64,000 bases of DNA from an uncultured Pelagibacteraceae bacterium (GTDB lineage Bacteria > Pseudomonadota > Alphaproteobacteria > Pelagibacterales > Pelagibacteraceae), in assembly GCA_902614125.1 (NCBI GenBank), contig CACMJW010000005.1, positions 1 through 64,000 of the forward strand, given 5' to 3'. The first letter of the stretch is position 1; each line of letters starts with the position of its first letter. The position numbers and the translations under genes were made by a program. The notes below the pieces were generated by a model. It was not told where the DNA came from. It was given only the letters and a program-made list of their open reading frames with translations, and ran no database searches. Of the stretch, positions 9,383-27,097 are shown one piece after another.

Positions 9383-10507
9383 TTACTGAACAGTTTCTAT
9401 GATAGTAGCAATGCCCATACCCAATCCTATACATTGGGTAGATAATGCGTATTTTTTATTTTCTCTGATCAACAGCTCAGATGCTTTACCTGTAATTCTT
9501 GATCCAGTTGCACCCAAGGGGTGACCTAAAGCAAGAGCACCACCATCTAAGTTTACTTTTTTAAGATCTATTCCTAAATCTTTTACACATGCAATTGATT
9601 GAGATGCGAAAGCTTCATTAATCTCGACAATATCTATTTTATCAATTGTTAAGTTTGCTCTTTGTAAAGCTTTTTTAGATGCACCAATTGGACCTAACCC
9701 CATATAATCTGGCTTACAACCTTCAACAGCAGTAGATACAATTCTACCTAAAATTTTTAAATTTTTTTCTTTTGCGTAATTTTCTTCACATATTAAAACT
9801 GCAGATGCTCCATCTGTAAGTGGTGAAGAGGTTGCAGCTGTTACTGTGCCTTCTTGATCAAAAGCTAGTTTTAATCCGTCTAATTTTTCTTGTGTGCTGT
9901 TCGGTCTTATATTTCCATCAACATCACAATCACCAATTGGAACAATTTCATTTTTAAACTTTCCGCTTGATTGAGCTTCATGTGCTTTTGCATGACTTTG
10001 AATTGCAAACTCTTGTTGTTCTTTTCTTGAAATATTATATTTTTTCGCAACATTTTCAGCAGTTGTACCCATTGAAAAATAAACATTAGGATTATCTTTG
10101 CCGTCATACGGATACGGTAAAGAGTCAAAACCAGTATTTACTCTAGTCATGCTTTCAACGCCTCCACAAATAAAAACTTTTCCTGAACCCATTGCAATCT
10201 TTCCAGCAGCAATGTGAATTGCTTCCATCGAGGATCCACACCATCTGTCTACAGTCATACCAGATGTTTGAATTTTCATATCTGTTAGAAACGTAACTAA
10301 TTTTCCAATATTAAAACATTGTTCACCTACTTGAAATGCACAACCAATTACAATATCTTCAATATCTTCTTTATTAATATTTGATTTGGTAACGAGACTT
10401 TTTACAACTTCTGCAAGCATGTTAACTGGCTTTACATCTATAAGTGCACCTTTTCTCGCCATTGTAAAAGGGGATCTTGAGTAACCTGCGATAACTGCTT
10501 TAAACAT
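9383..10507 (-). CDS. Acetyl-CoA acetyltransferase (thiolase)
   Basis: WCGSSMEAIHIAA active-site Cys, NEAFASQSIA, GGALALGHPLGATGSR and C-terminal CIGLGMG motifs. Confidence 0.9.
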   Translation of the reverse strand: MFKAVIAGYSRSPFTMARKGALIDVKPVNMLAEVVKSLVTKSNINKEDIEDIVIGCAFQVGEQCFNIGKLVTFLTDMKIQTSGMTVDRWCGSSMEAIHIAAGKIAMGSGKVFICGGVESMTRVNTGFDSLPYPYDGKDNPNVYFSMGTTAENVAKKYNISRKEQQEFAIQSHAKAHEAQSSGKFKNEIVPIGDCDVDGNIRPNSTQEKLDGLKLAFDQEGTVTAATSSPLTDGASAVLICEENYAKEKNLKILGRIVSTAVEGCKPDYMGLGPIGASKKALQRANLTIDKIDIVEINEAFASQSIACVKDLGIDLKKVNLDGGALALGHPLGATGSRITGKASELLIRENKKYALSTQCIGLGMGIATIIETVQ

Positions 10508-10533: not shown

Positions 10534-11679
10534 TTATTGAGGAAATGGCAAAGTGGTAATAGTTCCACTCTTTCTTTCTCCATTTAACATTTGGACAATA
10601 ATATTTTCACCAATCTCCCAATAGTCTTTTAAAATCATGGATAAACCAATGTTCTTTTTTATTCTAGGAGAGTAGATACCAGAAGTTATTTGTCCAATTT
10701 TTTTATTTGCATTAGACAAAACTGGTAATGGTTGACCAATTCCAGTTAAAGGCTCTCCATCAAATAATATTCCTCTAATTTTTTGCTTAACCCCATTTTT
10801 TTGAATTTTTTGCAGTGCTTCTTTTCCAATAAAATCATGATCATCGTCAGTTTTGCAATATTTATCTAAATTACATTCAAGAGGATTGTTTTCACTGGTG
10901 AAATCATTTCCATAAGACATTAGTCCTCCTTCAATTCTATCAATCAAGTTAGGACAACCAGGTGATATATTATATTTTTGACCAGCTTGCCATAAGGTCT
11001 TCCAAAGTTCCTCACCCATTTCAACACTATTAAAATGCTTATCATGAGTTTTAAAATATATTTCAAATCCATCTTGTTTACTGTAACCGGATCTTGCAAT
11101 GATTTGTTTTGTTCCCATAAAATCCATAACTCTGTAATTAAAAAACTTTATTTTTTTAATATCTTCTCCAAAAACTGACACCATTAGATCCTCAGATTTT
11201 GGTCCCTGAATTGCTAGTGGGTATACATCTGGCTCTTCAATATTCACATCAAGGTTTAACCCTATCGCATATCCTTTTGCCCATAACAAAATGTCTGAGT
11301 CTGCAATAGAGATCCAGAACATGTCATCATCTAGTTTTAACAATACAGGATCATTAATCATCCCAGCACTTTCATTTAGTATTGGAATATAAAAACATTT
11401 TCCAGCTTCCATTTTTTGAATTGAGCGAGGCGTTAATTTTTGAACAAGTTTAGATGCATCTGGTCCACTTATTTGAACTTGTCTTTGACAAGACACATCC
11501 CATATCTGAACATCTTTACTTAAATGCCAATAATCTGTTTCAACTGTATTTTTAAATCCCTTTGGAAGTAGCATGTGATTTACTACTGTAAAATCAGAAA
11601 CTCCATGCTCTTCAACCATATTTGTGTAAGGAGTTCTTCTTATTCTTCGTGACATATTTAATTTAATATTTTTTGACAT
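10534..11679 (-). CDS. GcvT-family protein, DmdA-like (DMSP demethylase or divergent paralogue)
   Basis: SRRIRRTPYTNMVEEHGVSDFTVVNHMLLP start characteristic of DmdA-like proteins; RIEGGLMSYGND and NPLECNLDKY GcvT segments. Confidence 0.7.
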   Translation of the reverse strand: MSKNIKLNMSRRIRRTPYTNMVEEHGVSDFTVVNHMLLPKGFKNTVETDYWHLSKDVQIWDVSCQRQVQISGPDASKLVQKLTPRSIQKMEAGKCFYIPILNESAGMINDPVLLKLDDDMFWISIADSDILLWAKGYAIGLNLDVNIEEPDVYPLAIQGPKSEDLMVSVFGEDIKKIKFFNYRVMDFMGTKQIIARSGYSKQDGFEIYFKTHDKHFNSVEMGEELWKTLWQAGQKYNISPGCPNLIDRIEGGLMSYGNDFTSENNPLECNLDKYCKTDDDHDFIGKEALQKIQKNGVKQKIRGILFDGEPLTGIGQPLPVLSNANKKIGQITSGIYSPRIKKNIGLSMILKDYWEIGENIIVQMLNGERKSGTITTLPFPQ

Positions 11680-11694
11680 AGTTTTATGTTTTTA

Positions 11695-12030
11695 TTATTT
11701 AGACCACCAAATAGAATATCCATTTGGTGAAATAATAATTGGTATATGATATTTTTTATTAGGATCTTCCATTCTAAATTTTACTGATATTTCTGAAACT
11801 ATTTTTTTCTCCAAGAAGTAGTCTGCAGTTTTGCAAATCATCTCGTAATCACATTCGCAATCTTCTTTTGATAAATCAAAATCTTTCAAAATTCTTCCAT
11901 CTTTACTAGTTTCAGTTTCAAAGAAATTTTTTTTATCTCCATTAGGATTTATTTGATAAATTATAACTTTAACTCCCTCAGCATGAGTTCCGTTAACTGA
12001 GTTTAAAAGGTGAGAGGATAAAGTTGCCAT
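11695..12030 (-). CDS. 5-hydroxyisourate hydrolase/transthyretin-like protein lacking the usual C-terminal YRGS
   Basis: LSSHLLNSVNGTHAEGV start, DGRI, and YHIPIIISPNGYSIWWSK end of the HIUase/TTR fold. Confidence 0.8.
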   Translation of the reverse strand: MATLSSHLLNSVNGTHAEGVKVIIYQINPNGDKKNFFETETSKDGRILKDFDLSKEDCECDYEMICKTADYFLEKKIVSEISVKFRMEDPNKKYHIPIIISPNGYSIWWSK

Positions 12031-12033
12031 AGT

Positions 12034-13776
12034 TTATTCAATTGAAGCTTTATCTCTTTTATCACTTACTGCTGCAACAATTGGGCTAATTACACCTTTT
12101 GCTTTTACATTGATGCATGCAGTTTTACCACTTTCGATAGCTCTTTTTAATGCAGGTGCCAACTGCTCTCTTTTTGTTACAAGCTCCCCATGTCCACCAA
12201 AGCCTTCAAATATTTTATGAAAAGGTATATCTCTAAAATCTGTTGCAAAATGTTTGCCGCTTTCAAATAACCTTTCTTGTTGTTGAGATATACAGTCGAG
12301 ACCTCCATTATTATCAATTACAACAATTATTGGTTTATTTTCTTGAAAAGCAGCTTCAATTGATAATCCTCCAGATAAAAAGGCTCCATCTCCACTTATT
12401 AAAATTACTTTTGAATCGGGGTTTGTATTTTTTGCAGAAAGCGCAAAGGGAACTCCAACACCTAACATGCTAAATGTGCCTGGATGAAGTATTCCTCCCA
12501 TTTTTTTTCCTTTTGAACCTGCAATGTTTATTGCAATTTCAGACCAGAAGTGTGTATTTCCCCCATCTATAACTAGCCAATCATTTTCACCAATAGCCTC
12601 TTGAACATCTAGAGCTAATTGAAGTGGATGCATTTTACCACCATTTGCTTCTGCTTCTTTTGTCTCTTTATTTAAATCGCTTAAAGTTTTATCAACCCAT
12701 TCTTGCTTTTTCTCTTTATTAAGATCAAACCAATCTTTACCCAAAGCCCATTTATTGTTTGACTTAAGCTTATTAAGGGTATCAAAAAAAACGCCAGGAT
12801 CGCATAACAAATTTATATCTGCTGCTCTATTAAGTTCTATTTCCTCATGAGATCCGTTTATACAAACAAGTTTAGTTGTCTTAGGAAATAGTGGAGGGTT
12901 TCCGAAATTCATCTGGTTATCTAATCTTGCTCCAACCATTAAAACTAGATCAGACTCATGTAATGCAAATTTAGAAGGTGGATACTGATGAATATCAGCA
13001 AGACCCATATATGCATTAGCTTCTTCACCAAGTAATTTTTGATGATAAGGAATATTAAATATTGGGATATTTAAATTGCTTCCTGCCTCTTCTAGTTTTT
13101 TTTCAGATCCAGACCACCAAACTCCATGCCCACCAATTAAAACAGGTTTTTTTGAGTTACAAGCAAGCTCTAGCACTTCTGCCATATGAGTTGGATCAGG
13201 CCATGCTTTTGCAATTGGTTTAGTTTGATGAGAAAAAGGTCTCTCTTCAAGTCCTGCATCTTCTGGAAAAGATGAGAACATAATATCAACCGGCATACTT
13301 AAGTGAACAGCACCTGGATATCCATTTGTTGCAATTCTATATGCTTTGTCGACAAACTCTCTTATTCTTGTCCCATCAGTTATACTTGCACTATATTTTG
13401 TTAATGGAGCCGCAATAGCAACGTCATCAATTTCTTTAAATCCACCTGACCCTTGTCTTTTCAAACTACTTGATCCAGTTATAAAAATTACAGGTGATCT
13501 TTCACCCCATGCTTCCATCATAGATGGAACAGCATTAGCAAATCCTTCTGGACCAACAAGACAAACTGCAGGCTTTCTAGTTATTCTTGTATGTCCGTCT
13601 GCAATGTGACCAGCTATTTGTTCATGAGGACAATTAATTACTTCCATCTGGCATTCCATAAATCCTTCAAGTGCAGGATTACAAAATCCACCTGACAAAG
13701 TAAAAACATGTTGAACACCTTTATCTTTTAATGCTCGTGCAATTAATGATCCGCCTCTAATTTTTTTTTCTGACAT
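12034..13776 (-). CDS. TPP-dependent enzyme of the acetolactate synthase / 2-oxoacid decarboxylase / 2-hydroxyacyl-CoA lyase superfamily
   Basis: Catalytic Glu region CPHEQIAGHIADGHTR; TPP motif SGDGAFLSGGLSIEAAFQENKPIIVVIDNNGG. Confidence 0.85.
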   Translation of the reverse strand: MSEKKIRGGSLIARALKDKGVQHVFTLSGGFCNPALEGFMECQMEVINCPHEQIAGHIADGHTRITRKPAVCLVGPEGFANAVPSMMEAWGERSPVIFITGSSSLKRQGSGGFKEIDDVAIAAPLTKYSASITDGTRIREFVDKAYRIATNGYPGAVHLSMPVDIMFSSFPEDAGLEERPFSHQTKPIAKAWPDPTHMAEVLELACNSKKPVLIGGHGVWWSGSEKKLEEAGSNLNIPIFNIPYHQKLLGEEANAYMGLADIHQYPPSKFALHESDLVLMVGARLDNQMNFGNPPLFPKTTKLVCINGSHEEIELNRAADINLLCDPGVFFDTLNKLKSNNKWALGKDWFDLNKEKKQEWVDKTLSDLNKETKEAEANGGKMHPLQLALDVQEAIGENDWLVIDGGNTHFWSEIAINIAGSKGKKMGGILHPGTFSMLGVGVPFALSAKNTNPDSKVILISGDGAFLSGGLSIEAAFQENKPIIVVIDNNGGLDCISQQQERLFESGKHFATDFRDIPFHKIFEGFGGHGELVTKREQLAPALKRAIESGKTACINVKAKGVISPIVAAVSDKRDKASIE

Positions 13777-14934
13777 TTAATATTTAAAATCTCTTATAAA
13801 CCTTTCTGCAATTATATCTGAAGAAATATCTTTTATATCAGTTAAACCTACCAATCCCAAGGCAGTACTTAATTCGTCTTTAATAATATCAACTACTCTC
13901 TTTAAACCTTTTGCTCCATCAGCTCCAATACCATACATAAGAGGTCTTCCCACCATTGTAAAATCTGCACCTAGCGCTAAAGCTCTTACAATATCGCTTC
14001 CACCTCTTATACCGCTATCAAATATGATAGGATAATCTTTACCTAAGGCATTTCTTATTATTGGAAGAGCTTCTATTGAAGAAGTGGCGCTATCTAATTG
14101 TCTTCCACCATGATTAGATACCTGAATAGCATCAGCTCCTTCAGACTTTATTTTTAAAGCATCTTCAGCAGACATTATTCCTTTAATAATTAGTTTACCT
14201 TTCCACTTTTCTCTTATTCTTTTTAATGTATCCCAATCAGTAGCCCCTCTACTTTCACTTCTAACAAACTTATTGCCTCTCTTAGAAGTTTCATAATTCA
14301 TTGGTTTTGGGATGCCACCCAACAATGTAGATATTGACCAGTTTGGATGAGTTGCAAAATCTATAAATTGTTTAACTCCAAGATTGAAAGGAACGGTAAA
14401 TCCATTTCTATTATCTTTAGCTCTCCTAAATTGAATGGGTACATCAACAGTAAGAATTGCAACTTTGTATCCCGTTTTTTCAGCTCTATCTAATAATTCC
14501 ATCACAAATTCTTCATCCTGGAAATTATAAAGTTGTAACCAAACATGACCTTTTGAATATTCATACATTTGTTCTAATGAGGTTGATGATGCCATCGAAA
14601 CACACATAGGTATATTGTTGGACAAACTTTCTTCAGCTAACATTTTATCTGCACCAGGCCAGGTTAAATTACACATACCCATTGGAGCAAATCCAAAAGG
14701 CTGATCGTATTCAAAACCTAAAATATCTTTTTTAATAATTCTTTTTTCAACATTTCTTAATACTTTAGGTTGAAGTCTTATTTGATCTAAAGCTTTACTG
14801 TTATTCTCACATAATTTTTCATCACCAGATGCACCATCAACAAAATCAAACATTAATTTAGGTACACGTTTTTTTGCAACTATTCTTGCTTCTTCGACAC
14901 TATGAATTTTTTTACTTGGGCTGACGTTGGTCAT
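13777..14934 (-). CDS. FMN-dependent alpha-hydroxyacid dehydrogenase/oxidase (LldD/glycolate oxidase family)
   Basis: FDFVDGASGDE, QVSNHGGRQLD, IIFDSGIRGGSDIVRALALGADFTMVGRPLMYG motifs. Confidence 0.9.
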   Translation of the reverse strand: MTNVSPSKKIHSVEEARIVAKKRVPKLMFDFVDGASGDEKLCENNSKALDQIRLQPKVLRNVEKRIIKKDILGFEYDQPFGFAPMGMCNLTWPGADKMLAEESLSNNIPMCVSMASSTSLEQMYEYSKGHVWLQLYNFQDEEFVMELLDRAEKTGYKVAILTVDVPIQFRRAKDNRNGFTVPFNLGVKQFIDFATHPNWSISTLLGGIPKPMNYETSKRGNKFVRSESRGATDWDTLKRIREKWKGKLIIKGIMSAEDALKIKSEGADAIQVSNHGGRQLDSATSSIEALPIIRNALGKDYPIIFDSGIRGGSDIVRALALGADFTMVGRPLMYGIGADGAKGLKRVVDIIKDELSTALGLVGLTDIKDISSDIIAERFIRDFKY

Positions 14935-15620
14935 AATTTATTTATATACTCATTAAGACTAATTTTACTGTTTTTATCAATGAAATAAGCATCACAACCA
15001 TTTCTAGCAGTACAAACTTCTTTAGCAGAACCATCAACAAATAATACTGCTACACCATCATCTATTGCTATGCCGGGTGGTAACTTACTATTTTTAATAT
15101 CAGCTTGGTATTGTGACATACGTTCAGGCACTGATGAGTGTGGTGTACAACTACCAGATAAAATATTTATACCTCTTAGTGGATTGTAACCTGGTCCAGC
15201 AGAATCTGATAAGATCCAATCAAACCAACAAACAGCACCAGCACTTATTCCAGACAAAATAATTCCAGAGTTATAAGCATCTTTAAAAACTTTTATGAGA
15301 TTGTTATCCTCCCAAATTTTAATCATAAACTTTGTATTACCACCTCCAATATAAATTATATCTTTTGCCATTAACCACTCTCTAAATCCATTACTTGAGG
15401 AACATAATTCAAAGTGCGAAAGTTGAATATTATATTTATCTAATTCACTATAAAATAATTTTATTTTACCCTTATTGTCTTCGCTAGCAGTTGGTAGAAA
15501 ACCAAAATTAATTTGTTTTTTTTGACATTGATCAATTAAAAATTTATCTAAAATTTCATCACTTCTATGAGTAAAACCACCACCACCTATGGCAATAATT
15601 TTTTTTTTATTTTGATCCAT
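14931..15620 (-). CDS. Peptidase S51 family (dipeptidase E / cyanophycinase-like)
   Basis: YIGGGNTKFM and nucleophile motif GISAGAVCWF; start overlaps the upstream neighbour's region by 4 nt (operonic). Confidence 0.8.
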   Translation of the reverse strand: MDQNKKKIIAIGGGGFTHRSDEILDKFLIDQCQKKQINFGFLPTASEDNKGKIKLFYSELDKYNIQLSHFELCSSSNGFREWLMAKDIIYIGGGNTKFMIKIWEDNNLIKVFKDAYNSGIILSGISAGAVCWFDWILSDSAGPGYNPLRGINILSGSCTPHSSVPERMSQYQADIKNSKLPPGIAIDDGVAVLFVDGSAKEVCTARNGCDAYFIDKNSKISLNEYINKL

Positions 15621-16858
15621 TAATTATTAGAAAGGCCTTCCCATGGTTTTGGCTTTGATGGAATATCTGTGTTAACTCCCCTAACAATTTCTCCATTAGC
15701 ATCATACATTGGAAGTTTGCAAAGCTCACCTTTTCTAATATTACCATCTGTACATTTTACATCTAGAATTGCACCAGGTCCTAAATCATAATTACTCATA
15801 TGAACTATTCCAACCCCACAAACTTGGTAAGGTGACCATGTGCTTGATGTAACTTTTCCAACTAATTTGTCTTTTAAATAAAGACTATTTCCTTTTAGCG
15901 CTATTCCATCTTTTATTCTTATTCCCCAAGTTTTACAATTTTTGTCAGCAGCAACTAAAGCTTCTTTTCCAATAAAATTTTCTTTATCTAAATCAACAAA
16001 TTTTCCAAGCCCAACAGAAAATGGATTTGTATTTTTATCAAAATCTTGTCCAGCTGATAAAAGTCCAGCCTCAATACGCCTTCCTCTAAATGAGGGAGTA
16101 GCGGTTAAGATCATTCCCATTTTCTTTCCTTCCTCTAGGATTAAATCTCCAATCATTTCAGCATTATTTTCAGGTCTTAAATAAAATTCCCAACCAAGTT
16201 CATTTGTAAAGCCAGTTCTACTTACAATTAGTTTTTCTCCTTTAATACTAACTGTTGTCCAATCAAAGTATTTCCAAGTTTTAGTCTTTCTTATCACTAC
16301 ATCCTCATCAATAATTTGATCTAGTAGTTTCATTGATTTAGGACCTTGTACTTGGCTGATCCATACATCTGGATCAGTAATATTTACGTTTAATCCATGT
16401 GCATTTGCTTTGTACCATGAAAATAAATCACCATCAGCTTGAGCAAACCAAAATTTATTTTCTTCAATTCTTAATAACAAACCATCTGTAATCATTCCGC
16501 CATCGTGATAACATGCAAATTGATAAGAGCATCTTCCAACATTTACTTTTGAAATATCTCTTGGAAAAATTTTTTGTAAAAGTTTTAAAGCATCTGGACC
16601 AGCAACCTCATAAGGATACTCACCAGTGTGTCTTAAAATTAAATCTTGTCTTGTTTTCCAATACATTTCATCTGGTGTTGCATTAGATAATTTTTCAGTT
16701 GTTAATCTTCCTGCATACTGTGAATATTCTGGGTCAAATGGTAGCTCTTGATACGTTAAAGGATGAACAGGCAAAGTTCTTGCCAATTCAAGAGATCTAC
16801 CTTTTTCAATCATTGATGGTTTTATTGAAAAACGTACTTTTTTTAAGGAGTCGTGCAT
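15620..16858 (-). CDS. GcvT-family aminomethyltransferase-like protein
   Basis: TGEYPYEVAGPDALKLLQKIFPRDI, VSRTGFTNELGWEFYL, GRRIEAGLLSAGQDFD segments typical of GcvT/DmdA-family proteins. Confidence 0.8.
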   Translation of the reverse strand: MHDSLKKVRFSIKPSMIEKGRSLELARTLPVHPLTYQELPFDPEYSQYAGRLTTEKLSNATPDEMYWKTRQDLILRHTGEYPYEVAGPDALKLLQKIFPRDISKVNVGRCSYQFACYHDGGMITDGLLLRIEENKFWFAQADGDLFSWYKANAHGLNVNITDPDVWISQVQGPKSMKLLDQIIDEDVVIRKTKTWKYFDWTTVSIKGEKLIVSRTGFTNELGWEFYLRPENNAEMIGDLILEEGKKMGMILTATPSFRGRRIEAGLLSAGQDFDKNTNPFSVGLGKFVDLDKENFIGKEALVAADKNCKTWGIRIKDGIALKGNSLYLKDKLVGKVTSSTWSPYQVCGVGIVHMSNYDLGPGAILDVKCTDGNIRKGELCKLPMYDANGEIVRGVNTDIPSKPKPWEGLSNN

Positions 16859-16991: not shown

Positions 16992-18479
16992 ATGAGAACA
17001 ATTTGTAAATTGATATCAGTTTCGCTGGTATCGTTGTTATTCTCTTTTTCATTAGCTAATGCATCAAGTGGAGTATTTAAACTTTCACATGATTTAGGTT
17101 TTGGAAAAGACACAAACCTTGATGCAATTTCAAAAGGAAGATTGTTTCAGGTTGTTATAATGACACAAAACCGTTTAGTAAGAAAAGACCTTAAAGGAGT
17201 AACATCCGCTGAGCTTGCAACTGATTGGTCAGCCAATGCTGATGCAACAGAGTGGACTTTCAATCTTCGTAAAGGTGTAAAATTTCATGACGGATCTGAT
17301 TTTGATGCAGAAGATGTAAAATATTCTTTAATGAGAGTTAAAGATCCAGATATTGGATCTCCTGCTAAGAAAAGTATGAGTTCAGTAACAGACATTGAGG
17401 TTGTTGACTCACATACAGTAAAAATGAAGTTAAACACTTCTTTTGCTGACTTTCCATTATTGTTAACTGACTACAGGTTAAGAATGATCCCATCAGGATC
17501 TGGAGATACCATTGGTAAAACTGGAGTTGGTACTGGCCCATTTATCGTAGATAAATTTGACCCAGAGGGAACAACAATTCTAAAAGCAAACCCTGATTAT
17601 TGGGAAGGTGCACCAGGATTAGCTGAAGTGCATGTAATCGCAATACCAGATGGTGAAGCTAGAGTTCAAGCTCTTCTTACTGGTCAAATTCATATGAACA
17701 GATACGTACCATTTAGCCAAAAGAAAATTTTTGATGGAAATTCAAAATTTAATGTATCGGTTGTTCCAACTGGAAACTGGAGAGGAATGGTTATGAGAAC
17801 AGACACAGCTCCTTTTGATAATCCAAAAGTGAGAAAAGCTGTTCGTTTAGCTGTAGATAGACAAGAGCTTGTGGATTTAGTTATGGGTGGAGCAGCGACT
17901 GTTGCGTGCGATACTCCTGTAGCTCCTTCAGATCAATATCGTTTGAAAATGAAGTGTCCTCAAAACATTAAAAAAGCTAAAAGTCTTTTAAAAGAAGCTG
18001 GATATCCAAACGGAATTGAAATGGTAATTCACGTTTCTACAAAAGAACCAACTTGGCCAACTATTGCTGAAGTTCTTCAACAACAATTGGCAAAAGCAAA
18101 CATCAAAGCTGAAGTTAAAATGACTCCATCAAAGAGTTATTGGAAAGAAACTTGGATGAAAAAGCCTGTTGCTATGACACGTTGGAATGAAAGACCAGCA
18201 GACAGTGCGTTGCATGAAATTTATCACAGTGGCGCAAAATGGAACGAGTCATTCTTTAAAAATCCTGCTTTTGATGAAAATTTAGCAAAAGCAAGAGGTG
18301 AGCTTAACTTTAATAAAAGAAGGAAAGCTTATCAAAATGCTCAAAAGACTTTATGGGAAGAATCTGGAACTATGATTCCTTACCACGTATCTAAGTTAGT
18401 TGTAACTTCTTCAAATGTTAAAAATTTAGATGAAGTTGAAGTTTTCTCAGTGCGTTGGCATAAAGTAAAAATGAAATAA
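16992..18479 (+). CDS. Dipeptide/oligopeptide-type ABC transporter substrate-binding protein (SBP_bac_5)
   Basis: Signal peptide; LATDWSANADATEWTFNLRKGVKFHDGSDFDAEDVKYSL is diagnostic for DppA/OppA family. Confidence 0.9.
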   Translation: MRTICKLISVSLVSLLFSFSLANASSGVFKLSHDLGFGKDTNLDAISKGRLFQVVIMTQNRLVRKDLKGVTSAELATDWSANADATEWTFNLRKGVKFHDGSDFDAEDVKYSLMRVKDPDIGSPAKKSMSSVTDIEVVDSHTVKMKLNTSFADFPLLLTDYRLRMIPSGSGDTIGKTGVGTGPFIVDKFDPEGTTILKANPDYWEGAPGLAEVHVIAIPDGEARVQALLTGQIHMNRYVPFSQKKIFDGNSKFNVSVVPTGNWRGMVMRTDTAPFDNPKVRKAVRLAVDRQELVDLVMGGAATVACDTPVAPSDQYRLKMKCPQNIKKAKSLLKEAGYPNGIEMVIHVSTKEPTWPTIAEVLQQQLAKANIKAEVKMTPSKSYWKETWMKKPVAMTRWNERPADSALHEIYHSGAKWNESFFKNPAFDENLAKARGELNFNKRRKAYQNAQKTLWEESGTMIPYHVSKLVVTSSNVKNLDEVEVFSVRWHKVKMK

Positions 18480-18566: not shown

Positions 18567-19523
18567 ATGTTATTATTAGTATTAAAGAGAATACTTCTAG
18601 GTTTTATCACTCTTTTTATTGTCTCTTTAATTACATTTTCTGGTGTTGAGGTTTTGCCTGGTGATGCTTGTACAACTTATCTTGAAAGAGAAGCATACGG
18701 TGCAGCTTTAGAGGCATGTTATGAAAGATTAGGTTTAAACACACCAGCGCATGAAAGATATATTTCATGGGCAGCTGGAGTTCTTCAAGGTGATTTTGGT
18801 TATTCTTTAAGTGGTGAAATGAGAATAAACGATGTCTTAGGACCAAGGGTTAAAAACTCTATGGTTCTTGCATCTGCCTCTATACTTATAGGAATTCCTA
18901 TTGCTTTATTACTTGGAATTATAACTGCTCTTTGGAGAGATAAACTTCCAGATATTATAATTTCAACAATTACAATTTTTTCAATGACAATTCCTGAATT
19001 TATTAGTGCAACATTATTAATTTTAATTGTTGCTATTTGGTTAGAGTGGCTTCCTGGAATTGTAATTGTGCCAACGGGTGCATCAATTTCAGAATTGTTG
19101 CCAAATATCATTTTACCTGTAATTGCAATTTCAATGATTATGACTGCGCACATGGCAAGAATGGTCAGATCAAGTGTTATTCAAGTTATGGCAAGTGACT
19201 ATGTTCAAATGGCAATTTTAAAAGGAGTTCCATATTGGAAAATGGTATTTAAGCATGTGCTTCCTAACGCTTTACTACCAGCAATAAATGTAGTGGCTCT
19301 TACAATTGCATGGTTGTTAGGGGGAGTTGTTGTAACTGAAGTTGTTTTTAACTACCCAGGTCTTGGTAGATTAGTAATAGAATCTATCTCGAATAGGGAT
19401 TTGCCCGTTGTTCAAGCTCTAGCAATTATTTTAGCATCAATTTATGTGAGCATTAATTTAATTGCAGATCTTATGACGTTAATGCTCAACCCAAGACTTA
19501 AATCCTTACAGATTAAAAAATAA
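18567..19523 (+). CDS. Dipeptide-type ABC transporter permease (DppB-like)
   Basis: MLLLVLKRILLGFITLFIVSLITF start, EAA loop ILKGVPYWKMVFKHVLPNALLPAI. Confidence 0.9.
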   Translation: MLLLVLKRILLGFITLFIVSLITFSGVEVLPGDACTTYLEREAYGAALEACYERLGLNTPAHERYISWAAGVLQGDFGYSLSGEMRINDVLGPRVKNSMVLASASILIGIPIALLLGIITALWRDKLPDIIISTITIFSMTIPEFISATLLILIVAIWLEWLPGIVIVPTGASISELLPNIILPVIAISMIMTAHMARMVRSSVIQVMASDYVQMAILKGVPYWKMVFKHVLPNALLPAINVVALTIAWLLGGVVVTEVVFNYPGLGRLVIESISNRDLPVVQALAIILASIYVSINLIADLMTLMLNPRLKSLQIKK

Positions 19524-20408
19524 ATGACATTAGAAAAAGAACAAAAGAAAAATAATCTACAAAAAGTATATGAGGTAATAAAAACTATGGCTTCAAAACC
19601 TTCAGGTTTGATTGGTTTAAGTATTTTGTTGTTCCATGTGATACTTGCAATAACAAGCCCTTTGTATGTACCTTATGATTATAAAGCGATTGATCCTTCG
19701 TTAATGCTTCAAGCACCATCTTCTGAATATTGGTTTGGTACTGATAGTTTAGGAAGAGATGTTTTTACTAGAACAATCTTAGGAGGCAGAACTGCTTTAA
19801 CAGTTACATTTTTTGGTTCTTTAATTGCATTACTTTGGGGTGGTGCATTGGGAATATTTTGTGGTCTGGTTGGTGGAAAAATAGATGACGTCGTTATGAG
19901 AATTATAGATGCGTTTTTATCTATTCCATGGATCTTAGCAATGCTTTTAATTGTTTCTTTATTAGGAACTACTACACTTGTTTTAATTCCAGCGCTTGGT
20001 TTCTTTTACGGTAAAGGTATTGTTAGAGTAGCAAGGGCAGCAACACACGATGTAATTGCTAAAGATTTTATAGTTTCAGCAAGAGCAAGAGGTCATAGCA
20101 ACTTATCAATAATCTGGAATGAAATTTTACCAAATGTAAGAGATGCAATTATGGTCGAAGGAGCTATGAGATGGTCATGGATGTTACTTGGATTTAGTTC
20201 ATTATCTTTTTTAGGATTTGGAGTAAGTCCTCCAACACCAGATTGGGGTTTAATGATTTCAAATGCAAGAGGATTAATGTCTTTTGCATACTGGGCAGTG
20301 TTAGCTCCAATATTTGGATTAAGTTCATTAATCATTGGAATTAATTTAACAGCTGATGCATTTGCAAAAGCACTTGGAATAGACAGATCAACAAAGGCAC
20401 CCGTTTAA
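19524..20408 (+). CDS. Dipeptide-type ABC transporter permease (DppC-like)
   Basis: WFGTDSLGRDVFTRTILGGRTAL motif typical of DppC; EAA loop ARARGHSNLSIIWNEILPN. Confidence 0.9.
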   Translation: MTLEKEQKKNNLQKVYEVIKTMASKPSGLIGLSILLFHVILAITSPLYVPYDYKAIDPSLMLQAPSSEYWFGTDSLGRDVFTRTILGGRTALTVTFFGSLIALLWGGALGIFCGLVGGKIDDVVMRIIDAFLSIPWILAMLLIVSLLGTTTLVLIPALGFFYGKGIVRVARAATHDVIAKDFIVSARARGHSNLSIIWNEILPNVRDAIMVEGAMRWSWMLLGFSSLSFLGFGVSPPTPDWGLMISNARGLMSFAYWAVLAPIFGLSSLIIGINLTADAFAKALGIDRSTKAPV

Positions 20409-20409
20409 A

Positions 20410-22443
20410 ATGGATAGTGCGATTCAAATAATAAATAATCTTACAATTGGATTTACAAGTCAAAAAGGAAAACAGATTTCCATTCTAAAAAATATTTCAA
20501 CCACCATTAAAAAAGGCGAGACTGTTGGGATTGTTGGAGAGTCTGGCTCAGGAAAAAGTACTCTAGCTTTAGCTATGATGGGCTATGTAAAACACGGCCT
20601 TTATACCATTTCTGGAGAGTGCTTATTCCATTCAAATAATCTTCTAGAAATGAAAAATAAAGATCTAGAAAATATAAGGGGTAGAAAAATAGCAATGATC
20701 CCACAAAATGCTGGTCAATCACTTACTCCTAATCTTAAAATTGGATATCAAATTGATGAGGCTTTAAAATTACATACAGATTTAAAAAAAGAGGAAAGAG
20801 ATAAAAAAATATCAGAATTACTGAATAAAGTTAGATTGCCTTCGCCCGAGATAATGGCCCAAAGATATCCGCATGAATTATCAGGCGGACAGCAACAAAG
20901 GGTAGCTGTTGCAATGGCTTTAGCAGGTAATCCCGAACTTTTGTTATTAGATGAACCAACAACGGGATTAGATGTAACAACACAGGCCCATGTATTAGAA
21001 TTATTAAATTTTATTGCAAAAGATACAGGAACCTCAATGGTTTATGTAAGTCACGATCTTGGAGCAATAGCACAAGTTAGCGATAGAGTAATTGTTATGT
21101 ATTCTGGTGAAATTGTTTTAGATGGTCCAGTAAGAAGTATATTAAAAAACCCAATTCATCCTTATACATTTGGATTATTAAAGTCTATTCCAAAACTAAC
21201 CTCTCCAGGTTTACCAGACTCTATGTCAGGTAGCCAACCTCAGCCAGGAACAATTAAAACAGGGTGTAGTTTTTATGAGAGATGTAATCTTGCAGAAGAT
21301 AAATGTAAAAATAATTCACCAACTTTAGAATACATTGATGATTTAAATACGAGCGTTAGATGTTTTAAATATAAAGAATTAATCAACGTAAAAGAAACAA
21401 ATCTAGACATTGTAAAATCAATAAACAATGATGTTTTACAAAACGAAATTTTAGATATTTCAAAAGTTTCAATTAGTTATGCTAAACAAAAGTTTATCGA
21501 TCAGTTATTAAATAAAATTGATGATAGCAATCCAACAGTACAAGATATTAATATCAATATTAACAAAGGAGAAACTCTCGCGCTAGTAGGGGAGTCTGGT
21601 AGTGGGAAATCAACAATATTAAAATCAATTGCAGGATTATTAAAAACAAAAGATGGAATGATAAAGTTTGATAAAGATAAAGTTTTATCAAATGATTTAA
21701 AAATGAGAGATCCAGGTTTTTTAAGAGCAATTCAATTAATATTTCAAAATCCAGATGAATCTTTAAATCCAAATCATACTGTTGAAGAAATAGTATCACA
21801 GCCTTTAAGATTATATTTTGGATTAAAGGGAGACGAACTAAAACAAAAAATTATAGAAGTGCTTGAAAAAGTTAGACTTGGAGAATTTTATTTAACAAGA
21901 TACCCAAGACAATTATCAGGAGGTGAAAAACAAAGAGTTGCTGTTGCAAGAGCATTTGCTGCAAAACCAGATATTATTCTTTGTGATGAAGTAACCTCTG
22001 CACTTGATGTTTCAGTTCAAGCAGCTGTATTAAACTTACTTCAAGAATTAAAAGAGGATTTTGGTACAACTTATATATTTGTATCTCACGATCTAGCAGT
22101 TGTAAGAGCTATTAGTGATAGAGTTGCAGTTTTATATCAAGGAAGATTATGTGAAATTGGTCCTTCAAAAAATGTTTATCAATTACCATCACATCCGTAT
22201 ACTGAAGTTCTATTAGGTGCAGTTTTAGAGCCTGATCCAGATGTAAAACCAAAATTAGTTGCTGAAGATATAGTTGAAGAGATGCCACCCGAAAAAGGCT
22301 GCTCTTTTCAAGGCAGATGTCCCAGAATCCTTGGTGATATTTGTAAAAACGAGGTCCCACCATGGCAAATTGGTGAAAATGGAAACTCAATACGTTGCCA
22401 TATAAAAGTAGAGGAATTAAAAAAACAACAAAATATCAATTAG
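20410..22443 (+). CDS. Fused dipeptide-type ABC ATPase (DppD-DppF, two ABC domains)
   Basis: Two Walker A motifs (GESGSGKST twice), two signatures (LSGGQQQRVAVAMA, LSGGEKQRVAVARA), two oligo_HPY Cys-rich C-terminal regions. Confidence 0.9.
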   Translation: MDSAIQIINNLTIGFTSQKGKQISILKNISTTIKKGETVGIVGESGSGKSTLALAMMGYVKHGLYTISGECLFHSNNLLEMKNKDLENIRGRKIAMIPQNAGQSLTPNLKIGYQIDEALKLHTDLKKEERDKKISELLNKVRLPSPEIMAQRYPHELSGGQQQRVAVAMALAGNPELLLLDEPTTGLDVTTQAHVLELLNFIAKDTGTSMVYVSHDLGAIAQVSDRVIVMYSGEIVLDGPVRSILKNPIHPYTFGLLKSIPKLTSPGLPDSMSGSQPQPGTIKTGCSFYERCNLAEDKCKNNSPTLEYIDDLNTSVRCFKYKELINVKETNLDIVKSINNDVLQNEILDISKVSISYAKQKFIDQLLNKIDDSNPTVQDINININKGETLALVGESGSGKSTILKSIAGLLKTKDGMIKFDKDKVLSNDLKMRDPGFLRAIQLIFQNPDESLNPNHTVEEIVSQPLRLYFGLKGDELKQKIIEVLEKVRLGEFYLTRYPRQLSGGEKQRVAVARAFAAKPDIILCDEVTSALDVSVQAAVLNLLQELKEDFGTTYIFVSHDLAVVRAISDRVAVLYQGRLCEIGPSKNVYQLPSHPYTEVLLGAVLEPDPDVKPKLVAEDIVEEMPPEKGCSFQGRCPRILGDICKNEVPPWQIGENGNSIRCHIKVEELKKQQNIN

Positions 22444-26137: not shown

Positions 26138-27097
26138 ATGAAAAAAGAAAGAAATAAAAATCCAGTCCAGCCAGTTAGTGGAACAAAAGTTCCAAGGTAT
26201 GCAGGACCAAGCACATTTGCAAGATTACCAGAATTAAGAGATGTTGAAAGTTGTGATGTTGCAATTGTTGGAATTCCATTTGATAGTGGAACAAGTTATA
26301 GACCTGGTGCAAGATTTGGACCTCAAAGTATTCGACAAGCCTCAAGACATTTAAGAACTAATTATCATCCAAGTTATGATGTTGAGCCGTTTAAGGTTCA
26401 ACAAGTTGCAGATGCAGGCGATATAGCTTGTAACCCATTTAATATTGATGAAGCCATTAAACAAATTGAGGTAGGCGCAACAGATTTATTAAATAAAGTA
26501 GGTGGAATTATCAGTCTTGGTGGTGATCATACAATTGCAGTGCCGCTATTAAGAGCTGCAAATAAAAAGAATAACGGTCCAGTATCTTTGGTCCATTTTG
26601 ATGCTCATTTAGATACTTGGGATACTTATTTTGGTGCACCCTACACACATGGAACTCCTTTTAGAAGAGCTCGTGAAGAAAATTTATTTCTAGATGATGC
26701 TTCTATGCATGTTGGTATAAGAGGACCTTTATACAGTAGAGATGACATAAAGAATGATGAAAGTTTTGGATTTAAAATTATTCATTGTGATGAATTTCAA
26801 ACAGAGGGAACAGATAAAATTGCAGAAAGAATTAAAAAAAGAGTTGGAGATAATGCTTTGTACTTATCTATTGATATTGACGTGCTTGACCCAGCTTTTG
26901 CACCAGGAACAGGAACACCTGAAATAGCAGGTATGACCACTAGAGAAATGGTTAATGTCCTAAGAGGATTGTCAGGTTTAAATTTGATCTCAGCAGATGT
27001 CGTAGAAGTTGCACCTGCGTATGATCATGCTGAAGTTACTTCTCTTGCTGCTGCTACAATTGTTTACGAATTAACAAATTTATTTGCAAAATCATAA
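26138..27097 (+). CDS. speB: Agmatinase/ureohydrolase family protein
   Basis: GGDHTI, HFDAHLDTWD, SIDIDVLDPAFAPGTGTPEIAGM metal-binding motifs. Confidence 0.9.
   Translation: MKKERNKNPVQPVSGTKVPRYAGPSTFARLPELRDVESCDVAIVGIPFDSGTSYRPGARFGPQSIRQASRHLRTNYHPSYDVEPFKVQQVADAGDIACNPFNIDEAIKQIEVGATDLLNKVGGIISLGGDHTIAVPLLRAANKKNNGPVSLVHFDAHLDTWDTYFGAPYTHGTPFRRAREENLFLDDASMHVGIRGPLYSRDDIKNDESFGFKIIHCDEFQTEGTDKIAERIKKRVGDNALYLSIDIDVLDPAFAPGTGTPEIAGMTTREMVNVLRGLSGLNLISADVVEVAPAYDHAEVTSLAAATIVYELTNLFAKS

Follow-up and report, generated by a model that had tools for sequence, protein, structure and literature searches.

A transthyretin-fold protein with a replaced HIUase tail in a conserved ThDP-enzyme gene cluster of Pelagibacteraceae and other proteobacteria

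The window analyzed here, a stretch of 64,000 nucleotides from the genome of an uncultured Pelagibacteraceae bacterium, encodes a small protein of the 5-hydroxyisourate hydrolase (HIUase)/transthyretin family within a gene cluster that runs in the order GcvT2, S51 peptidase, FMN dehydrogenase, ThDP enzyme, HIUase-like protein, DmdA-like demethylase and thiolase, with an ABC transporter encoded divergently (Table 1). We refer to the HIUase-like protein as the WWS protein, after the consensus of its C-terminal tail (WWS-x). The nearest solved relatives of the FMN enzyme are L-lactate oxidase and (S)-mandelate dehydrogenase. For the ThDP enzyme, which has complete ThDP domains, the closest solved relatives are 2-hydroxyacyl-CoA lyase/oxalyl-CoA decarboxylase and benzaldehyde lyase, but the protein scores below the cut-off of every NCBIfam model among the matches listed; its closest contigs (93-94% identity) come from single-cell genomes of Pelagibacteraceae. 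Elsewhere in the window, a gene named from its sequence only as a member of the agmatinase/ureohydrolase family is followed by an aldehyde dehydrogenase gene (26138-27097, plus strand), and this pair possibly represents a guanidino-compound route.

Table 1. Features of the WWS gene and its cluster in the window
Feature	Coordinates	Strand	Evidence
WWS-type transthyretin/HIUase-like protein	11695..12030	-	111 aa + stop; PF00576 match
His7 codon, counterpart of kpHIUH His7	12010..12012	-	role from PMC8272043
Arg46 codon, counterpart of kpHIUH Arg41	11893..11895	-	role from PMC8272043
His95 codon, counterpart of kpHIUH His92	11746..11748	-	role from PMC8272043
C-terminal tetrapeptide WWSK replacing YRGS	11698..11709	-	W108 76/76 vs Y 44/44
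Acetyl-CoA acyltransferase (thiolase), lineage-specific cluster member	9383..10507	-	TIGR01930 415 bits
DmdA-like folate-binding demethylase, 381 aa	10534..11679	-	NF009133 523 bits
ThDP-dependent enzyme, 580 aa, 3 bp upstream of WWS gene	12034..13776	-	Pfam TPP_enzyme N/M/C
FMN-dependent 2-hydroxyacid dehydrogenase, 385 aa	13777..14934	-	FMN_dh 403 bits
S51 family peptidase, 229 aa; adjoins cassette in SAR116 loci too	14931..15620	-	PF03575 119 bits
Second GcvT-like protein (GcvT2)	15620..16858	-	GCV_T 135 bits
Family 5 solute-binding protein, divergent; conserved beside cassette	16992..18479	+	SBP_bac_5 295 bits
Permeases and ATPase, dipeptide-type ABC transporter	18567..22443	+	sequence and ORF layout; homologues recur beside cassette

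The original prediction of a HIUase/transthyretin-like protein proved accurate: the open reading frame occupies precisely positions 11695-12030 of the minus strand, and its product matches the Pfam profile PF00576 (HIUase/Transthyretin) over the whole length (73.4 bits, cut-off 25.3, E 2.8e-20). AlphaFold2 predicts a confident transthyretin fold (mean pLDDT 95.0, pTM 0.86), and the best PDB matches of this model are HIUases (E 4.5e-10). All three hallmark residues that had been recognized outside the tail were found, namely, His7 in the LSSH motif, Arg46 in DGR and His95 in YHIP. The protein had also been described as lacking the YRGS motif, with a C-terminus reading GYSIWWSK; this reading of the C-terminus stands against the STYRGS of HIUases, and YRGS is indeed absent, but the motif is better described as replaced because WWSK takes its place position by position, with the chain ending at the same point. 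The NCBI equivalog model for HIUase, TIGR02962, is not satisfied (73.4 bits vs the cut-off of 87.45). The window protein is a member of PF00576 built on the HIUase scaffold, yet by the features tested it is not a HIUase.

We compared 76 window-type (WWS) sequences with 44 other alphaproteobacterial members of the family. His7 and His95 are invariant in both sets (76/76 and 44/44 for each residue), and Arg46 is present in 76/76 sequences of the WWS clade and in 43/44 YRGS proteins. The tails, in contrast, differ consistently: position 108 is Trp in 76/76 WWS sequences and Tyr in 44/44 others, position 109 is Trp in 70/76 and Arg in 44/44, and position 110 is Ser in 74/76 and Gly in 44/44. A further difference lies at position 16, which is occupied by His in 69/76 WWS sequences and by Pro in 43/44 others. 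All 44 non-WWS proteins, including the most divergent ones, end in YRG followed by Ser or Gly. After the removal of near-copies, which left 39 WWS and 41 other sequences, the pattern holds, with His7, Arg46 and His95 conserved in 39/39; the mean pairwise identity among these 39 non-redundant WWS sequences is 40% and the minimum is 23%. Because the chain terminates at the exact YRGS end position in 68 of the 76 WWS proteins, contact between the terminal carboxylate and the arginine would still be possible.

In the tree, which the original prediction had proposed as a check together with an alignment, the WWS proteins form one clade with branch support of 100/100; without the C-terminal columns the support is 99, the inner forks of this short alignment being unsure. 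A search of 385 alphaproteobacterial genomes with a WWS profile separated the two types sharply, with six genomes scoring 123-165 bits and everything else at or below 82. The WWS type is a separate, probably old, subfamily in bacteria and has a conserved tail of its own. Taken alone, the loss of the YRGS motif might be read as the mark of a decaying paralogue devoid of function; given the strong conservation over several bacterial groups, the intact frames, the fixation of an alternative motif and the retention of gene order, we regard this explanation as hardly credible. In one locus (L120), the WWS gene, directly behind the ThDP gene, extends over two reading frames, which reflects either a frameshift or an assembly error in a cassette that is otherwise intact. 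A different kind of divergence was observed in L068 (7439-7774, minus strand), where none of the catalytic residues remains in a PF00576 protein (33 bits) that ends in VHFHS (LS.H is replaced by LSIQ, and both DGR and YH.P are missing). The gene of this protein, which is a different, probably non-catalytic member of the family, adjoins a metallo-beta-lactamase-fold gene and rlmJ.

Compared with the characterized HIUases (PucM, HiuH and kpHIUH, covered by PF00576 and TIGR02962), the WWS proteins share the fold, the length, the positions of the catalytic His/Arg/His and the position of the chain end, but differ in the replacement of Tyr108 by Trp, of Arg-Gly by Trp-Ser and of Pro16 by His, in forming a separate clade, and in the location of the gene, which belongs to another gene cluster free of purine genes. 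The membership in the family and the conserved His/Arg/His would be compatible with a protein that is still a 5-hydroxyisourate hydrolase and merely has an unusual tail, as would the largely retained activity of kpHIUH with the S108A substitution (PMC8272043). However, the functions of the individual residues argue otherwise. The roles of His7, Arg41 and His92 have been described for Klebsiella HIUase (PMC8272043). In characterized HIUases, the Tyr of the YRGS motif contacts the substrate and the terminal carboxylate braces the Arg, and deletion of the tetrapeptide greatly suppresses catalysis (PMC8272043); in the transthyretin-like protein (TLP) of S. dublin, replacement of Tyr by Phe at the matching site abolishes rapid hydrolysis of 5-hydroxyisourate (PMC4324301). 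The missed TIGR02962 cut-off points in the same direction.

The genomic distribution of the two types also weighs against 5-hydroxyisourate as the substrate. Among 61 genomes of the window genus and order, 11 (the window genome included) encode the WWS type, 6 encode a second type with the STYRGS ending, which is about 28% identical to the window protein, and 2 encode both. Within the genus, the STYRGS paralogue adjoins genes for OHCU decarboxylase and xanthine-dehydrogenase-like proteins, also where a WWS gene is present, so that genomes with urate-degradation genes carry a separate YRGS protein beside them. OHCU decarboxylase was found in 6/6 genomes of the genus with the STYRGS type and in 0/9 of those with the WWS type only; the Fisher p-values (1.8e-8 for the association of the canonical type with OHCU decarboxylase and 0.29 for that of the WWS type) are descriptive only because the genomes are incomplete and related. 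Five of the six genomes recovered with the WWS profile likewise encode a lower-scoring HIUase-type protein, and the two second copies that were read both end in YRGS. Together, within the genus and in other Alphaproteobacteria, the two types coexist in seven genomes. The original prediction had also noted that purine genes are missing from the vicinity, and this was borne out: none was detected among the ten window genes scanned with Pfam (5.2-6.3 kb and 8.5-18.5 kb), and OHCU decarboxylase was not found in the window genome, which is 81% complete. Nor were purine degradation genes seen co-located with the WWS gene in relatives, and the literature searched contains no WWSK homologue acting on 5-hydroxyisourate. 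We therefore consider a 5-hydroxyisourate hydrolase with an aberrant tail to be improbable. The change of substrate that had been proposed is well supported, if indirectly, by the separate clade with its invariant Tyr108-to-Trp change, the lack of association with purine genes, the genomes that encode a canonical HIUase alongside it and the different, conserved gene context.

To characterize this gene context, on which the original prediction had not remarked, genome contigs were searched with the ThDP enzyme alone, which yielded 66 loci, 65 of them informative (L132 is truncated within the ThDP gene). In 63 of the 65, representing Alpha-, Gamma- and Deltaproteobacteria, a WWS gene directly follows the ThDP gene on the same strand, often at a distance of 0-10 nt or with an overlap. 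The FMN gene precedes the ThDP gene in most loci but is absent from L111, L118, L120 and L126, where the gene found in its place matches in length the NAD-epimerase-like protein read in L120. A DmdA-like gene follows the WWS gene in nearly all loci. The cassette is not strictly fixed, however: L125, L129, L134 and G786 contain the ThDP and WWS genes without the DmdA-like gene, and two Chloroflexi loci (L109 and L114) encode homologous FMN and ThDP enzymes without a WWS or a DmdA-like gene. Thus, the tightest unit is the ThDP-WWS pair, followed by the FMN and DmdA-like genes, and the rest is lineage-specific. In L114, genes for MTA-phosphorylase-like and MtnA-like proteins lie close to the FMN and ThDP genes. 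The cassette is uncommon: when 399 genomes of the phylum were scanned in addition, only one further case turned up. Plasmid collections contained canonical HIUases and no cassette, and the ThDP homologues found there are distant (<30% identity among the matches listed). We found no description of a HIUase-like gene in such a cluster in the literature searched, outside of which most subscription journals fall.

The demethylase of the cassette could suggest involvement in the degradation of DMSP. The window protein passes the NCBI model for DMSP demethylase, NF009133 (523 bits vs the cut-off of 410), as do all cassette demethylases tested (490-580 bits); because true DmdA proteins (about 550-636 bits) pass as well, this cut-off does not separate the two clades. 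The cassette demethylases resemble DmdA (3TFH) in being folate-binding proteins that are homologous to it over the whole length, but the window protein is only about 46% identical to P. ubique DmdA (generally 40-50% for cassette demethylases), and these proteins form a clade of their own (SH-aLRT 83; 100 for the clade of true DmdA). Furthermore, 18 positions are fixed differently in the two groups, including Trp197 of DmdA, which is replaced by Tyr in 66/70 cassette demethylases; judging by its spacing to Glu and Tyr, this residue would be the 'W171' that has been called key for DMSP (PMC7487153). The window genome encodes, in addition, a separate true DmdA (G000:C1:243545-244648; 74% identical to that of P. 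ubique) adjoining genes for an AMP-ligase and an acyl-CoA dehydrogenase that resemble dmdB and dmdC, and true DmdA proteins (74-81% identity to P. ubique) are encoded outside the cassette in this genome and its relatives. To our knowledge, the DMSP demethylation pathway includes no FMN, ThDP or HIUase-type step. Given the own clade of the demethylases, the replacement of Trp197 among the fixed differences and the location of true DmdA elsewhere, DMSP is unlikely to be the substrate of the cassette, and the notion that the cassette is a DMSP pathway in which the WWS protein acts on a DMSP-derived intermediate appears decidedly improbable. Altogether, the window genome (1.18 Mb) contains 11 DmdA/GcvT-like matches (among them 10534-11679, 15620-16858 and G000:C5:52962-53969), which for so small a genome is a strongly expanded set of folate-dependent (de)methylation proteins.

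The genes that adjoin the cassette in other genomes provide hints at the substrate class. These include MTTB-family methyltransferases (five loci), sarcosine-oxidase-like proteins, including the sarcosine oxidase alpha subunit (four loci), FTHFS and FolD (three loci) and a distant GbcA-like Rieske protein (one locus). Homologues of carnitine 3-dehydrogenase-thioesterase and BKACE were identified near the cassette in five loci, including L111, whose dehydrogenase was read and scores over the cut-off. Thus, in several loci of the SAR116 and Rhodobacteraceae-like types, the cassette is flanked by genes of the kind that make up glycine betaine and carnitine clusters (MtgB, CdhA, BKACE), but such genes were not seen next to it in the window, and we know of no glycine betaine or carnitine pathway with a HIUase-like step. 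In the SAR116 loci L067, L104 and L185, an MTTB gene lies beside the S51 gene, the place taken by GcvT2 in the SAR11 loci; this arrangement might represent a non-homologous replacement of a corrinoid-dependent demethylase by a folate-dependent one. Such a replacement would make sense because Pelagibacteraceae have been reported to lack the corrinoid protein MtgC (PMC12478193). Collectively, these neighbors, present in a minority of loci, are no more than suggestive of a quaternary amine or another methylated compound, whereas the S51 peptidase and the dipeptide-type transporter would suggest a peptide-like substrate rather than a simple betaine.

Several more specific candidates were considered. 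Because ureide breakdown is a route in which HIUase occurs together with FMN and ThDP enzymes, we considered a glyoxylate/allantoin-type logic with an FMN glycolate oxidase and glyoxylate carboligase; however, the ThDP enzyme is nearer to the lyase/oxalyl-CoA decarboxylase group, and ureide genes were not seen to co-occur. Creatinine or N-carbamoyl chemistry came into view because an isochorismatase-family amidase is present in three gammaproteobacterial loci, of which L117 encodes a copy nearest to RutB/biuret hydrolase (84 bits, far below the cut-off) and also a dimethylformamidase-like protein; it was set aside because too few loci are involved. For homarine, no supporting paper was found in the literature searched.

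The explanation that we favor, with some confidence, is that the WWS type is a transthyretin-fold hydrolase with no part in purine breakdown, and that its cassette serves to degrade a small methylated compound, of which a betaine or some other quaternary amine is the likeliest kind. By analogy with HIUase, His7 and His95 would activate a water molecule in the tetramer, and Arg46 would polarize the carbonyl group of the substrate (an amide, lactam or ester). Arg46 itself would be braced by the C-terminal carboxylate, whose position in the chain is the same as in HIUase. The substitution of Trp108 for the Tyr that contacts 5-hydroxyisourate, and of Trp109-Ser110 for Arg-Gly, would adapt the pocket to a different molecule. 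Within the cassette, we infer that the FMN dehydrogenase converts a 2-hydroxy acid to a 2-oxo acid, which the ThDP enzyme would cleave or join, and that the DmdA-like protein, together with GcvT2 or MTTB, passes the methyl groups on. The WWS protein has its closest tie to the ThDP enzyme, and its own role is therefore probably to hydrolyze the adjacent intermediate, a substrate or product of that enzyme.

This close linkage, which persists where the remainder of the cassette is absent and in many loci takes the form of spacers of 0-10 nt or overlaps, would also be expected under the main alternative, namely, that the WWS protein is a non-catalytic partner: either a small subunit through which the ThDP enzyme is regulated or binds a ligand, or a binding protein of the transthyretin kind whose hydrolytic activity has been lost. 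Transthyretin, a hormone distributor with an open central channel, is a HIUase-family protein that turned into a binding protein and lost the catalytic residues in part. Its origin involved a substitution of the matching Tyr (PMC4324301), and the parallel with vertebrate transthyretin that the original prediction drew is valid to this extent, the fold and the site of the neofunctionalizing change being shared. It does not extend to the active site: the WWS proteins, a separate, bacterial case with a bulky Trp instead of Thr at the key site, retain His/Arg/His in 76/76 sequences, the residues whose loss marks transthyretin, and this invariance argues for retained catalysis. Conservation of His7, Arg46 and His95 throughout a set of 76 sequences that diverge to 23% identity would not be required of a binding protein, and the Chloroflexi homologues of the ThDP enzyme have no WWS gene in their vicinity. 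We therefore consider a non-catalytic role unlikely.

On a more far-reaching reading, the cassette would form part of an undescribed pathway, distributed among SAR11, SAR116, Rhodobacteraceae-like, SUP05 and other proteobacteria, that degrades a methylated osmolyte or a methylated, peptide-like compound through FMN-dependent oxidation, a ThDP step, the WWS hydrolase and folate-dependent demethylation by a sister family of DmdA; to this fuller scheme we would give an even chance. The origin of transthyretin from HIUase is a textbook case of repurposing. If confirmed, the WWS hydrolase would mean that the HIUase scaffold has been repurposed independently a second time, here for catalysis on a new substrate, and such a bacterial case with catalysis retained would show what else the transthyretin fold can hydrolyze. 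Family models would label the proteins of the cassette as HIUase-like or as DMSP demethylases, and this in bacteria some of which are among the most abundant in the sea; metagenome-based estimates of purine and DMSP degradation may thus count genes with neither function. The conserved, clonable gene set would make a marine carbon or nitrogen source directly testable.
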